In this document: positions 10,320 to 13,368 of the stretch, in pieces | How the letters are laid out: every line of letters starts with the position of its first letter | Position numbering within the stretch: the stretch's first letter is position 1 | Origin: Fimbriiglobus sp. | GTDB taxonomy: Bacteria; Planctomycetota; Planctomycetia; Gemmatales; Gemmataceae | Assembly (NCBI GenBank): GCA_025352235.1 | Contig: JANXTU010000067.1 | Coordinates: forward strand, 1 to 34,744 | Length of the DNA stretch: 34,744 nt | Reading direction: 5' to 3' | Notes under the pieces: generated by a model | Told to the model about the DNA's origin: nothing | Database searches by the model: none | Seen by the model: the letters and a program-made list of their open reading frames with translations, nothing else | Program-made: the position numbers and the translations under genes

Positions 10320-11276
10320 ATGGCCGTCAACTACTGGCTCGGCGTCGATCTCGGCGGGACGAAAATCCTCACCGGCCTCTTCGACGATCAATTCAAGTTG
10401 ATCGCGCGGAACAAGCAGCCGACGGGAGCCGAGGCCGGGCCGACCGGCGTCTTCGGCCGCGTGATCCAAGCCGTCGATGTCGTGTTGCGCGAAGCGAAAA
10501 TCGAACCGGGTCAAGTCCGCGGAATGGGCTTCGCGATCCCAGGGCAGATCGAACCGGGCAAGCCCGTGGTGCGCTTCGCCCCCAACCTCGACTGGCGAGA
10601 TGTCGATTGCTCGGCGCTCCTGCCGGCGACTTGGCCGTGGCCCGTGTTCCTCGAGAACGACGTCCGCATGGGCACCTACGGCGAGTTCGCCCACGGCGCG
10701 GCCAAGGGGGCCAAGCACGTCTTCGGCATTTTCGTCGGCACCGGCGTCGGCGGCGGGTTCATCCTCAACGGCGAACTCTTCACCGGTTTCAACGGCCACT
10801 GCGGCGAGATCGGCCACATCGTGCTCGATTGGCGCAAAGGCTCCACGCTCGAATCGATCGCCGGTCGCAAGTATCAGATGAAACGGGCGAAGGAACTGCT
10901 CGACGACGCCCCGAAGCGCATCCGCAAAGAGTGGAAAGGCATCGACACCGAGAAGGTGAAAAGCTCGCAGCTCGCCGAGTTTTACCTGAAAGATGATCCC
11001 ATCGCGGTCGGCATCATCGACGATGCGGCCCGGGCCATCGGCGCCGCCATCGGGAGCGTCATCAACCTGATGAGTCCGGAGATCGTCGTCATCGGCGGCG
11101 GCGTGACCGGGGCCCTCGGCGAAAGCTTCACCGAGCGGATTTGGGACATCGCCCAGCGCTACACTCTCCCGGGGGCGGCGGCCAACATGAAATTTGCGAC
11201 TGCGGCGCTCGGCGACGATTCCGGGATCGTCGGTGCCGCGGCCTACGCCCGCTCGAAAGTCGAGGCCCAAAAGTGA
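10320..11276 (+). CDS. ROK-family kinase, glucokinase-like (no zinc cluster)
   Basis: 318 residues from the ATG at 10320, with GGAGG at 10309-10313. VDLGGTKILTGLFD is the first phosphate loop, FLENDVRMGTYGE holds the catalytic Asp region, IFVGTGVGGGFI is the second phosphate loop, and GHCGEIGHIVLD is the usual sugar-binding Glu-His element. The CxCGxxGCxE zinc cluster that normally follows is absent; a short STLESIAG segment takes its place. VVIGGGVTGALG closes the fold. The protein resembles glucokinases of the ROK group, but sugar specificity cannot be read. It is only about 38% of the way between trpF and hisN in spacing terms: 31 nt after trpF, and its stop overlaps the hisN start. Confidence 0.85.
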   Translation: MAVNYWLGVDLGGTKILTGLFDDQFKLIARNKQPTGAEAGPTGVFGRVIQAVDVVLREAKIEPGQVRGMGFAIPGQIEPGKPVVRFAPNLDWRDVDCSALLPATWPWPVFLENDVRMGTYGEFAHGAAKGAKHVFGIFVGTGVGGGFILNGELFTGFNGHCGEIGHIVLDWRKGSTLESIAGRKYQMKRAKELLDDAPKRIRKEWKGIDTEKVKSSQLAEFYLKDDPIAVGIIDDAARAIGAAIGSVINLMSPEIVVIGGGVTGALGESFTERIWDIAQRYTLPGAAANMKFATAALGDDSGIVGAAAYARSKVEAQK

Positions 11277-12061
11277 ACCCCGAATGGCGCAGCCGGTACA
11301 ACTTGGCCGTCGAAGCCGCGCGGCGCGGCGGCGACTTCGCGAAGACGATCTACGATGCGACCTTCCAAGATCGGGCGGCGCTGGAGGTGATCCGCAAGGC
11401 CGATGACAGCCCGGTGACAGTCGCCGACCGCGGCGCGGAGAAGTTGATCCGCGACCTCATCGGGAAGCACTTCCCCGGCGACGGTTTCCTCGGCGAGGAA
11501 TTCGGCAATCAAGAAAGCTCCACCGGCTTCCGCTGGATCATCGACCCGATCGACGGCACGAAATCGTTCGTCCGGCACGTCCCCATTTGGGCGACGCTGA
11601 TCGGGCTGGAGTTCGAGGGCGAACAGATTGCCGGGGCGGTCTACATCCCCGCCTTCCGGCAGATGTATCGGGCCTTGCGCGGCGACGGGGCCTACCTCGA
11701 CGATCTGCGCATCCGCGTTTCGGACACGCCGACGCTCGCGGAATCGATCCTCTGTTATTCGAGCATCGGCTGGTTCACCCGCGCCGGCCGGCAGAACACG
11801 TTCCTCAACCTCTATCAGCAGACCGGCCGGCAGCGCGGCTACGGCGACTTCTACGGATTCGTCCTCGTCGCGCAGGGGGCCGTCGATTTGATGGTCGAAC
11901 ACGGCGTGAGCGCGTGGGATGTGGCCGCGACCAAGGCGATCATCGAAGAAGCCGGCGGGACTTTCACCGACTGGGACGGCACGCCGACGATCCACCGGCC
12001 CGATGTTTTAGCGACCAACGGCAAACTTCACGCGGCGGCGCTGGCGCTACTGAAGGAGTGA
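11273..12061 (+). CDS. hisN: Inositol-monophosphatase-like, probable histidinol-phosphatase
   Basis: 262 residues from a GTG at 11273 that overlaps the ROK stop (GTGA). Family motifs are present: DSPVTVADRGAE (45 onward), GEEFG (metal Glu at 75 or 76), WIIDPIDGTKSF (metal Asp91 and Asp94) and SAWDVAATKAI (last metal Asp). These bind two or three Mg ions in the Li-sensitive phosphatase fold. The stretch RGYGDFYGFVLVAQGAVDLM is the type seen in HisN histidinol-phosphatases, which dephosphorylate histidinol phosphate in histidine synthesis. That assignment is favoured over inositol phosphatase, but only by local similarity. No other his gene is visible here. Confidence 0.82.
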   Translation: MNPEWRSRYNLAVEAARRGGDFAKTIYDATFQDRAALEVIRKADDSPVTVADRGAEKLIRDLIGKHFPGDGFLGEEFGNQESSTGFRWIIDPIDGTKSFVRHVPIWATLIGLEFEGEQIAGAVYIPAFRQMYRALRGDGAYLDDLRIRVSDTPTLAESILCYSSIGWFTRAGRQNTFLNLYQQTGRQRGYGDFYGFVLVAQGAVDLMVEHGVSAWDVAATKAIIEEAGGTFTDWDGTPTIHRPDVLATNGKLHAAALALLKE

Positions 12062-12068
12062 TTTCCAA

Positions 12069-12476
12069 TGTGGCGACACGTTTTCCAACGTGTCGGACAT
12101 AGGAGTTACGCACTTGGGTGGGTGGTGGGGGTTTGGGCAGGATTGATTCTTGCCCATCTAGCCCAGGCGTGTGCAGTTTGTTGTCCAAACTGCCTCGGAT
12201 CACTCAACTGCGTAACTCCCTGGACAGTCTTGGATCTTCCGACACGTTAAGAAACGTGTCGCCACACCGACAAAGCCCCGTCCTGGCGATCAATGGGGAG
12301 ACACGTTTTCCAACCTGTCGAAAAGTCTTGGATCTTCCGACACGTTCAGAAACGTGTCGCCACAGAGATTAAGCCACGCCCTGGCGATCAATGGGGCGGC
12401 ACGTTTTCAAACGTGTCGAAAAGTCTTGGATCTTCCGACACGTTCAGAAACGTGTCGCCACAGAGATTGAGCCACG
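12069..12476. repeat. Tandem array of three 98-bp palindromic units
   Basis: The core GTCTTGGATCTTCC occurs at 12227, 12325 and 12423, exactly 98 bp apart. Each unit has two hairpins with CGACACGTT / AACGTGTCG stems: 12074-12095, 12240-12261, 12299-12320, 12338-12359, 12397-12418 and 12436-12457. One outer stem in unit 2 and one in unit 3 carry a base change. Units also share the spacer CTGGCGATCAATGGGG. The first unit is split by a MITE-like element. The array fills most of the gap between hisN and the cupredoxin gene; 12477-12594 holds nothing else that I can identify. It may act as a REP-like or termination region. Confidence 0.9.
12100..12221. mobile_element. MITE-like 122-bp element inside the tandem array
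   Basis: Perfect 11-bp terminal inverted repeats, GGAGTTACGCA at 12102-12112 and its complement at 12209-12219, extend imperfectly to about 19 bp. The element is flanked by GGACA on both sides (12095-12099 and 12222-12226). Removing it together with one GGACA restores a unit exactly 98 bp long, so this is a real insertion with a 5-bp target duplication. It encodes no transposase. Inside it is a hairpin GCAGTTTG-TTGTC-CAAACTGC (12173-12193). The parent IS is not in the window. Confidence 0.85.
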
Positions 12477-12594: not shown

Positions 12595-13368
12595 ATGCGC
12601 TGTTTTCTGTTGCTGTCCACCCTCCTCGGCGTCGGCTCGTTCGCGGCCGGGGCCGAAAAATACATGACCATCCAAGGCACCATCAAGTGGAAAGAGGCCA
12701 AGCCGCCCGCGGCGGTGATTATCGACGTCAAGACCGACGCGGCCGTCTGTTGCAAAGCCGGTCCGTTGGAGTCGAATCGAGTCGAAGTCGATCCGAAGAG
12801 CCTGGGCGTGAAGAACGTCACGGTATGGCTCCGCCCCGACACCGATGTCCGGGCGGACACCTTTCCGCTCGATAAGATCCACCCGGATTTGGCCAAGCCG
12901 AAGTCGGTCGAGCACGTCATCGATCAACCGAAGTGCCAGTTCGAGCCGCGGGTCATCGTGGCTCGCGCCGGCGACACCTTGGTCGTCAAGAACTCCGCCG
13001 CCATCGGGCACAACGTGAATTACTCCAGCGATATCGAGTCGTTCAACGTCAACCTCCCGGCCGGTTCGCAGAAGAAACTCGACAAGCCGCTCGAAGCTCA
13101 AAAGTCGCCGATCGGCGTCGCCTGCAACGTCCACACGTGGATGGAAGGCAAAGTCCGCGTCTTCGATCACCCGTACTTCGCCATCACCGACAAAGACGGC
13201 AAGTTCGAAATCAAGAACGCCCCCGTCGGCAAATGGCGCGTCGTGTACCACCACGAAGGCGGCTACCACAAAGGCAAGGAAGGCTTGCTCGGCTACCCGG
13301 TCGAATTGAAGGGCGACAAGAAGACGATGGAGATGGACGCCGTGAAACTGGAACTGCCGAAGCCGTAG
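12595..13368 (+). CDS. Secreted cupredoxin-like copper protein
   Basis: 257 residues with a signal peptide (about 1-20, ending AAGA). The C-terminal half is cupredoxin-like. Its copper ligands can be read: His139 in IGHNVNYSSD, then Cys177, His180 and Met183 in ACNVHTWM, the type 1 Cys-x2-His-x2-Met pattern. The last part (about 190-257, FAITDKDGKFEIKNAPVGKW) resembles the carboxypeptidase regulatory-like beta-sandwich. The N-terminal part (about 25-110) carries CC at 52-53 and conserved VKNVTVWLRP. Proteins of this type are annotated as methylamine-utilisation-like or plastocyanin-like in planctomycetes. An electron carrier in the periplasm is likely. A paralogue follows 32 nt downstream. 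Confidence 0.8.
   Translation: MRCFLLLSTLLGVGSFAAGAEKYMTIQGTIKWKEAKPPAAVIIDVKTDAAVCCKAGPLESNRVEVDPKSLGVKNVTVWLRPDTDVRADTFPLDKIHPDLAKPKSVEHVIDQPKCQFEPRVIVARAGDTLVVKNSAAIGHNVNYSSDIESFNVNLPAGSQKKLDKPLEAQKSPIGVACNVHTWMEGKVRVFDHPYFAITDKDGKFEIKNAPVGKWRVVYHHEGGYHKGKEGLLGYPVELKGDKKTMEMDAVKLELPKP

Follow-up and report, generated by a model that had tools for sequence, protein, structure and literature searches.

The window analysed here, a stretch of 34,744 nucleotides from a contig of a Gemmataceae planctomycete, carries three tandem 98-bp units at positions 12069-12476, in the gap between two genes. The features of the locus, with strand where one applies, are the following:

11141..12061, + strand: gene upstream of the array, a member of the inositol-monophosphatase family that comes nearest to HisN (TIGR02067, E 5.6e-77, below the curated cut-off)
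12069..12097, + strand: REP arm 1 (unit 1 left), TGTGG head, palindrome CGACACGTTTTCCAACGTGTCG at 12074-12095, GA tail
12095..12099: GGACA target-site duplication, left copy; the unit is again 98 bp long once its flanks are joined
12100..12221: MITE of 122 bp without a gene, bounded by TAGGAGTTACGCA.../...TGCGTAACTCCCT; some 15 related copies in the genome
12222..12226: GGACA target-site duplication, right copy
12238..12266, - strand: REP arm 2 (unit 1 right), TC, palindrome at 12240-12261, CCACA
12267..12293: linker joining unit 1 to unit 2, part of the 98-bp direct repeat
12294..12320, + strand: REP arm 3 (unit 2 left), degenerate, TGGGG plus AGACACGTTTTCCAACCTGTCG
12336..12364, - strand: REP arm 4 (unit 2 right), palindrome at 12338-12359 plus CCACA
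12365..12391: linker joining unit 2 to unit 3
12392..12418, + strand: REP arm 5 (unit 3 left), TGGGG plus CGGCACGTTTTCAAACGTGTCG
12434..12462, - strand: REP arm 6 (unit 3 right), palindrome at 12436-12457 plus CCACA
12463..12476: truncated linker of unit 3 and end of the repeat; the match to unit 2 stops at 12476
12595..13368, + strand: gene downstream of the array, encoding a secreted protein that matches cupredoxins weakly (PF00127, E 1.9e-4)

The right-arm palindromes start at 12240, 12338 and 12436, that is, 98 bp apart each time, and the left-arm palindromes at 12074, 12299 and 12397, where the first interval is 225 bp (98+127) and the second again 98 bp. Once 127 bp are taken out of unit 1, the units measure 98, 98 and 85 bp and are identical at 86/98 (unit 1 versus 2), 80/85 (2 versus 3) and 73/85 positions (1 versus 3), confirming the 98-bp period described in the initial annotation. 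Each unit is an inverted pair of REPs, the scheme of the REP being GTGG-CGACACGTT-nnnn-AACGTGTCG-GA with a 22-bp palindrome. Two hairpins had been claimed for each unit; all six arms are indeed present, but in units 2 and 3 the left arm has degenerated, reading AGACACGTT...AACCTGTCG and CGGCACGTT...AACGTGTCG, respectively, with GGGG replacing GTGG at the head of both. The inner gap between the arms of a pair is 17 nt in units 2 and 3 and 144 nt (17+127) in unit 1. As unit 3 is without most of its linker, the array amounts to three inverted pairs and two connecting linkers. Single-stranded DNA of a REP pair is predicted to form a long hairpin (fold z of -7.9 for unit 3, DNA parameters).

The array begins 8 nt past the stop codon of the HisN-like gene. 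The start codon of the downstream neighbour is probably at 12595, judging from a signal-peptide-like N-terminus.

The inserted element

The 122-bp insert at 12100-12221 has perfect 11-bp inverted repeats (GGAGTTACGCA), each set in from the end of the element by 2 nt (TA.../...CT), and is bordered on both sides by GGACA (12095-12099 and 12222-12226), all as initially described; minus 127 bp, unit 1 is again 98 bp long. It is short and non-coding, with inverted ends, a target duplication and multiple copies, as expected of a MITE. The related copies elsewhere in the genome, full or partial, are 86-95% identical and all lie outside the REP repeat; several have 5-bp duplications of their own (TTGGT, TTGTT, ATATG), and the others none that is recognisable. 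No preference of the MITE for REP sites was seen, the flanks of the other copies being without REPs. On three contigs of the same genome (C152, C81 and C361; loci L004, L006 and L015) a MITE copy has a common left flank, after which the sequences differ or end; this looks like assembly breakage at the MITE repeat.

Which came first, array or MITE? Imagine the 122-bp stretch was ancestral to the unit and was lost from units 2 and 3. Parsimony alone could favour this scenario, and we found no sequence evidence for it. Against it stand the perfect 5-bp duplication and inverted ends of the stretch and the existence of copies elsewhere without a REP, several bearing duplications of their own. Furthermore, removing the stretch restores the modal REP gap, and none of the 47 other gaps (10-56 nt) within REP pairs contains an extra 122 bp, an absence by which the scenario is refuted; we give it practically no credence. 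Since the insert splits the spacer of a single pair, carries its own target duplication and upon removal leaves the modal 17-nt gap, the array is older than the MITE, as had been proposed. The 144-nt gap is the sole outlier among REP pairs and hence lends independent support to insertion. Note that the insertion, originally called datable, can be placed in a relative order of events but nothing beyond that.

Elements of 1.06-1.08 kb that end in TAGGAGTTACGCAGTTG, as the MITE does, occur in other Gemmataceae, namely G063 (L219), G072 (L225), G076 (L227) and G113 (L243). The transposase of the G063 element matches the IS701-family model NF049921 (E 2.4e-109), and those of G072, G076 and G113 are similar by eye. 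The MITE resembles these autonomous IS701-type elements in its ends (TAGGAGTTACGCA) and in the length of its duplication (5-6 bp, recognisable at the G063 and G076 elements) but differs in having no transposase. Given these shared ends, we regard the insert as an IS701-type MITE. In the window's own genome, a search for a complete IS bearing precisely the ends of the MITE returned only TAGGCCTTACGCA-ended elements, among them the full-length IS701 homolog on C122, and no autonomous partner with the same ends. Across the family, GGAGTTACGCAGTT-ended elements are present in 30 of 95 genomes, as MITEs of 76-397 bp and, in four, as the 1.06-1.08-kb elements.

The repeat family across the genome

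The window belongs to a 5.49-Mb draft genome of 613 contigs with a completeness of 90%. Allowing at most two mismatches, the pattern CGACACGTTnnnnAACGTGTCG occurs 97 times in it, whereas the same pattern reversed, which served as a control, does not occur; the palindrome is therefore not a product of chance. From 43 loci about 132 copies were gathered, so that the genome holds about 130 REPs in 65 clusters. GTGG stands at the foot of 96 of 134 REPs (the runner-up head being found in three), GA follows on the far side of the palindrome in 75, and the loop, read on the strand with GTGG, is rich in pyrimidines (TCTT, TCCC, TTCC, TTTC, TCCT). Neighbouring REPs form 48 inverted +- pairs with GTGG facing outward, as opposed to 11 -+ neighbours and one ++ pair, and the inner gaps of pairs other than unit 1 fall into two classes, 10-28 and 36-56 nt, with a mode of 17.

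In 19 of 37 REP pairs the two arms have identical loops, compared to 10.5 expected by shuffling (p 0.0008), and recognisably the same spacers recur on separate contigs (C64/C590; C533/C410), a pattern that would fit copying of the REP pair as a unit, albeit indirectly. The near-perfect 22-bp palindromes are strongly conserved whereas the spacers between the arms are not; since most spacers have diverged, most copies look old. A short palindrome, dispersed in high copy number, mostly extragenic and marked by a conserved tetranucleotide (GTGG) at one foot, is what defines REPs and BIMEs; inverted REPs at limited spacing with a predicted long hairpin are the mark of REPINs. The early suggestion of a REP-like element is therefore supported and can be refined to inverted REP pairs of the REPIN/BIME type that are scattered over the genome and have a related variant on both sides of a RAYT gene in another genus.

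To locate the clusters relative to genes we trained a simple codon model on the window; it is a rough tool that missed the window's own hisN-like gene. By this model, predicted coding cover averages 25% for REP clusters versus 83% for loci overall; 14 of 57 clusters were called mostly coding, probably in part through prediction error. The model took the place of a test based on the longest open frame (p 0.07), which told little in this GC-rich genome. Adjacent gene 3' ends mostly lie no more than 60 nt from a cluster, and the 35 clusters with both neighbours called occupy 20 tandem, 11 convergent and four divergent gene gaps.

A structured RNA and a regulatory site had both been entertained as the identity of the repeat. 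Neither finds support: some 65 clusters lie beside unrelated genes, and an Rfam scan of the window yielded no family at gathering score. Alternatively, the hairpins might be kept mainly because they terminate transcription of the hisN-like gene or protect the 3' end of its mRNA. The short distance from the hisN-like stop to the array, the proximity of most clusters to a gene 3' end and the strength of the predicted hairpins (DNA parameters) all speak for such a role. However, no T run follows the hairpins, and the inverted pairs with conserved GTGG heads, like the association with RAYT, would be left unexplained. Moreover, a mobile REP could come to act as a terminator secondarily; for E. coli REPs, such side effects on transcripts are known. 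We therefore consider termination or protection a highly improbable primary role, while an effect of the REPs on the 3' end of the upstream mRNA is possible.

Transposases and related repeats

Among 95 genomes of the family, the repeat is clear in three: the window's own (G000), a congener (G002, with 11 matches to the same repeat) and a member of another genus (G024). A single match in G096, with two mismatches, is doubtful. G024 contains about 70 copies of a variant, CGACAAGTTnnnnAACTTGTCG, i.e. GTGG-CGACAAGTT-TATT-AACTTGTCG, the stem of which shows a paired C-G to A-T change, both sides being altered so that the change is compensated. At locus L145 of this genome, tandem doublets of the variant with a period of 118-119 bp lie at 48-239 and 1005-1264, on both sides of a RAYT gene (273-962, - strand, 230 aa), the arrangement known as a REPtron. 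The RAYT protein matches NF047646 (REP-associated tyrosine transposase; E 1.4e-16, below the curated cut-off) and nothing in Pfam at E 0.001. A Pfam Y1_Tnp search of the window's genome and three relatives had found RAYT-like genes, none beside the repeat, and had missed this one, which was recovered with NF047646.

Aligned with its homologs, the G024 protein (P0001) displays candidate HuH/Y1 motifs, MPSHVHW (HVH) and WQHEGYDHW..YVDDNP, and the homologs (in G029, G039, G033, G006 and G021) keep both the HuH and the Y motif. The genes for these homologs adjoin palindromes of their own, which are GTGG-, GTAG- or other-headed and include GTGG-GGCAGGCC..., GTGG-GACACGAT... and GTGG-AGCAGACA..., as well as GTAG-CGACAAGCTG... 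in G006 and, in G033, GTGG-GGCACGTT-TTG-AACGTGCC-GGA, a close likeness of the window's REP.

The window's own genome has six RAYT-like genes (on C270, C254, C151, C205, C583 and C89), of which the one on C89 is the closest homolog of the G024 RAYT, at 33%. Searches of this 90%-complete draft of 613 contigs with PF01797, NF047646 and P0001 found none of the six adjoining the window's repeat, so that one REPIN hallmark, a RAYT paired with its REP within one genome, is missing from the draft. We conclude that the cognate transposase has been lost or is unassembled. A RAYT adjoining the repeat was not found in congener G002 either, and the cognate RAYT is therefore inferred from another genus. In its anatomy, the window's repeat resembles REPs that are served by a RAYT, and its close relative in G024 adjoins a RAYT gene.

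One might instead suppose that a DNA-binding protein, be it a regulator or a nucleoid protein, recognises the palindromes and that selection maintains them at many loci, so that they would not be mobile relics. Strong conservation of the 22-bp palindromes next to unconserved spacers is what this model would lead us to expect. However, to a dimeric protein on duplex DNA the site would not look symmetric, given its orientation-specific GTGG head and pyrimidine loop; the clusters are found 3' of unrelated genes, with only 4/35 in divergent gaps; and the G024 variant flanks a RAYT gene. We regard protein-binding sites as very improbable.

Origin of the array

Very probably, the array consists of RAYT-mobilised REPINs that were amplified in tandem and then struck by a MITE. 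With their inverted REP palindromes, outward-facing GTGG at the foot and 17-nt spacer, the units are three tandem copies of REPIN type. By analogy with characterised systems, a RAYT, i.e. a HuH/Y1 single-strand transposase, would bind GTGG plus hairpin on single-stranded DNA and mobilise the inverted pair (PMC3116915, PMC8266576); we assume on this basis that a RAYT was the mover in the window's lineage too. For a Marinomonas REP with a GTGG head, cleavage at CC has been reported (PMC8266576). The 98-bp unit of pair plus linker would then have been amplified in tandem, as happens in BIMEs. Later, an IS701-type MITE entered the spacer of unit 1 and duplicated 5 bp at its target. A variation on this theme, which we find rather unlikely, is an orphan REPIN family: the genome would truly be without a cognate RAYT, and the copies would stay palindromic through another resident RAYT acting in trans or through host use of the hairpins at gene 3' ends.

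How does the family compare to known repeats? With GTAG-tagged REPs and BIMEs (PMC3733652, PMC8266576) it shares a palindrome of 20-30 nt, a one-sided tetranucleotide, high copy number, extragenic location, inverted pairs and tandem arrays. It differs in its new stem and loop (CGACACGTT-YYYY-AACGTGTCG), in having GTGG as the rule, in its Gemmataceae host and in the lack of a visible cognate RAYT in the window's genome. GTGG also replaces GTAG in most GTAG-20 elements of Opitutus terrae, and the planctomycete Rhodopirellula baltica has several GTAG families (PMC3733652). The REPINs of Pseudomonas fluorescens SBW25 (PMC3116915) are likewise inverted doublets with ends conserved above the spacer and the potential to form one long hairpin, but SBW25 has about 1,400 REPs compared to about 130 here, and the spacers of the window's family are much more diverged and fall into a short (10-28 nt) and a long (36-56 nt) class. 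REPtrons are RAYT genes flanked by their own REPs (PMC2817692, PMC8266576); the G024 variant is alike, with tandem doublets on both sides of the RAYT, whereas the window's genome and G002 have no such RAYT beside the repeat. A literature search of limited reach for REPs together with Gemmata found nothing. The repeat thus belongs with the GTAG-type REPs, among which it forms a new family marked by GTGG at the head; it is a known kind of bacterial repeat and no new kind of system.

The analysis adds a GTGG-headed REP family and a RAYT clade in Gemmataceae, and with the MITE nested in the REP array it is clear in which order the two mobile repeats arrived. Since the stem shows a paired change between two genera and each homologous RAYT has a different palindrome, these repeats form a natural set in which to follow co-change of RAYT and hairpin.

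Further pairings of RAYT and palindrome were encountered in passing. A same-clade RAYT homolog with one TGA interruption lies near 1501-1893 of L181 (G033:C457), flanked by GTGG-GGCACGTTTTGAACGTGCC-GGA palindromes that are near-identical to some REPs of the window's genome. In that genome, a RAYT above the NF047646 cut-off (L133/L071, G000:C151) is flanked by GTGTGGCTGGCCTCTTTGAGGCCGATGCCCGA palindromes, a second GTGG-headed REP family. Finally, at 986-1434 of L173 (G006:C15), five GTAG-headed CGACAAGCTG palindromes at a regular spacing of 107 bp lie beside a same-clade RAYT.
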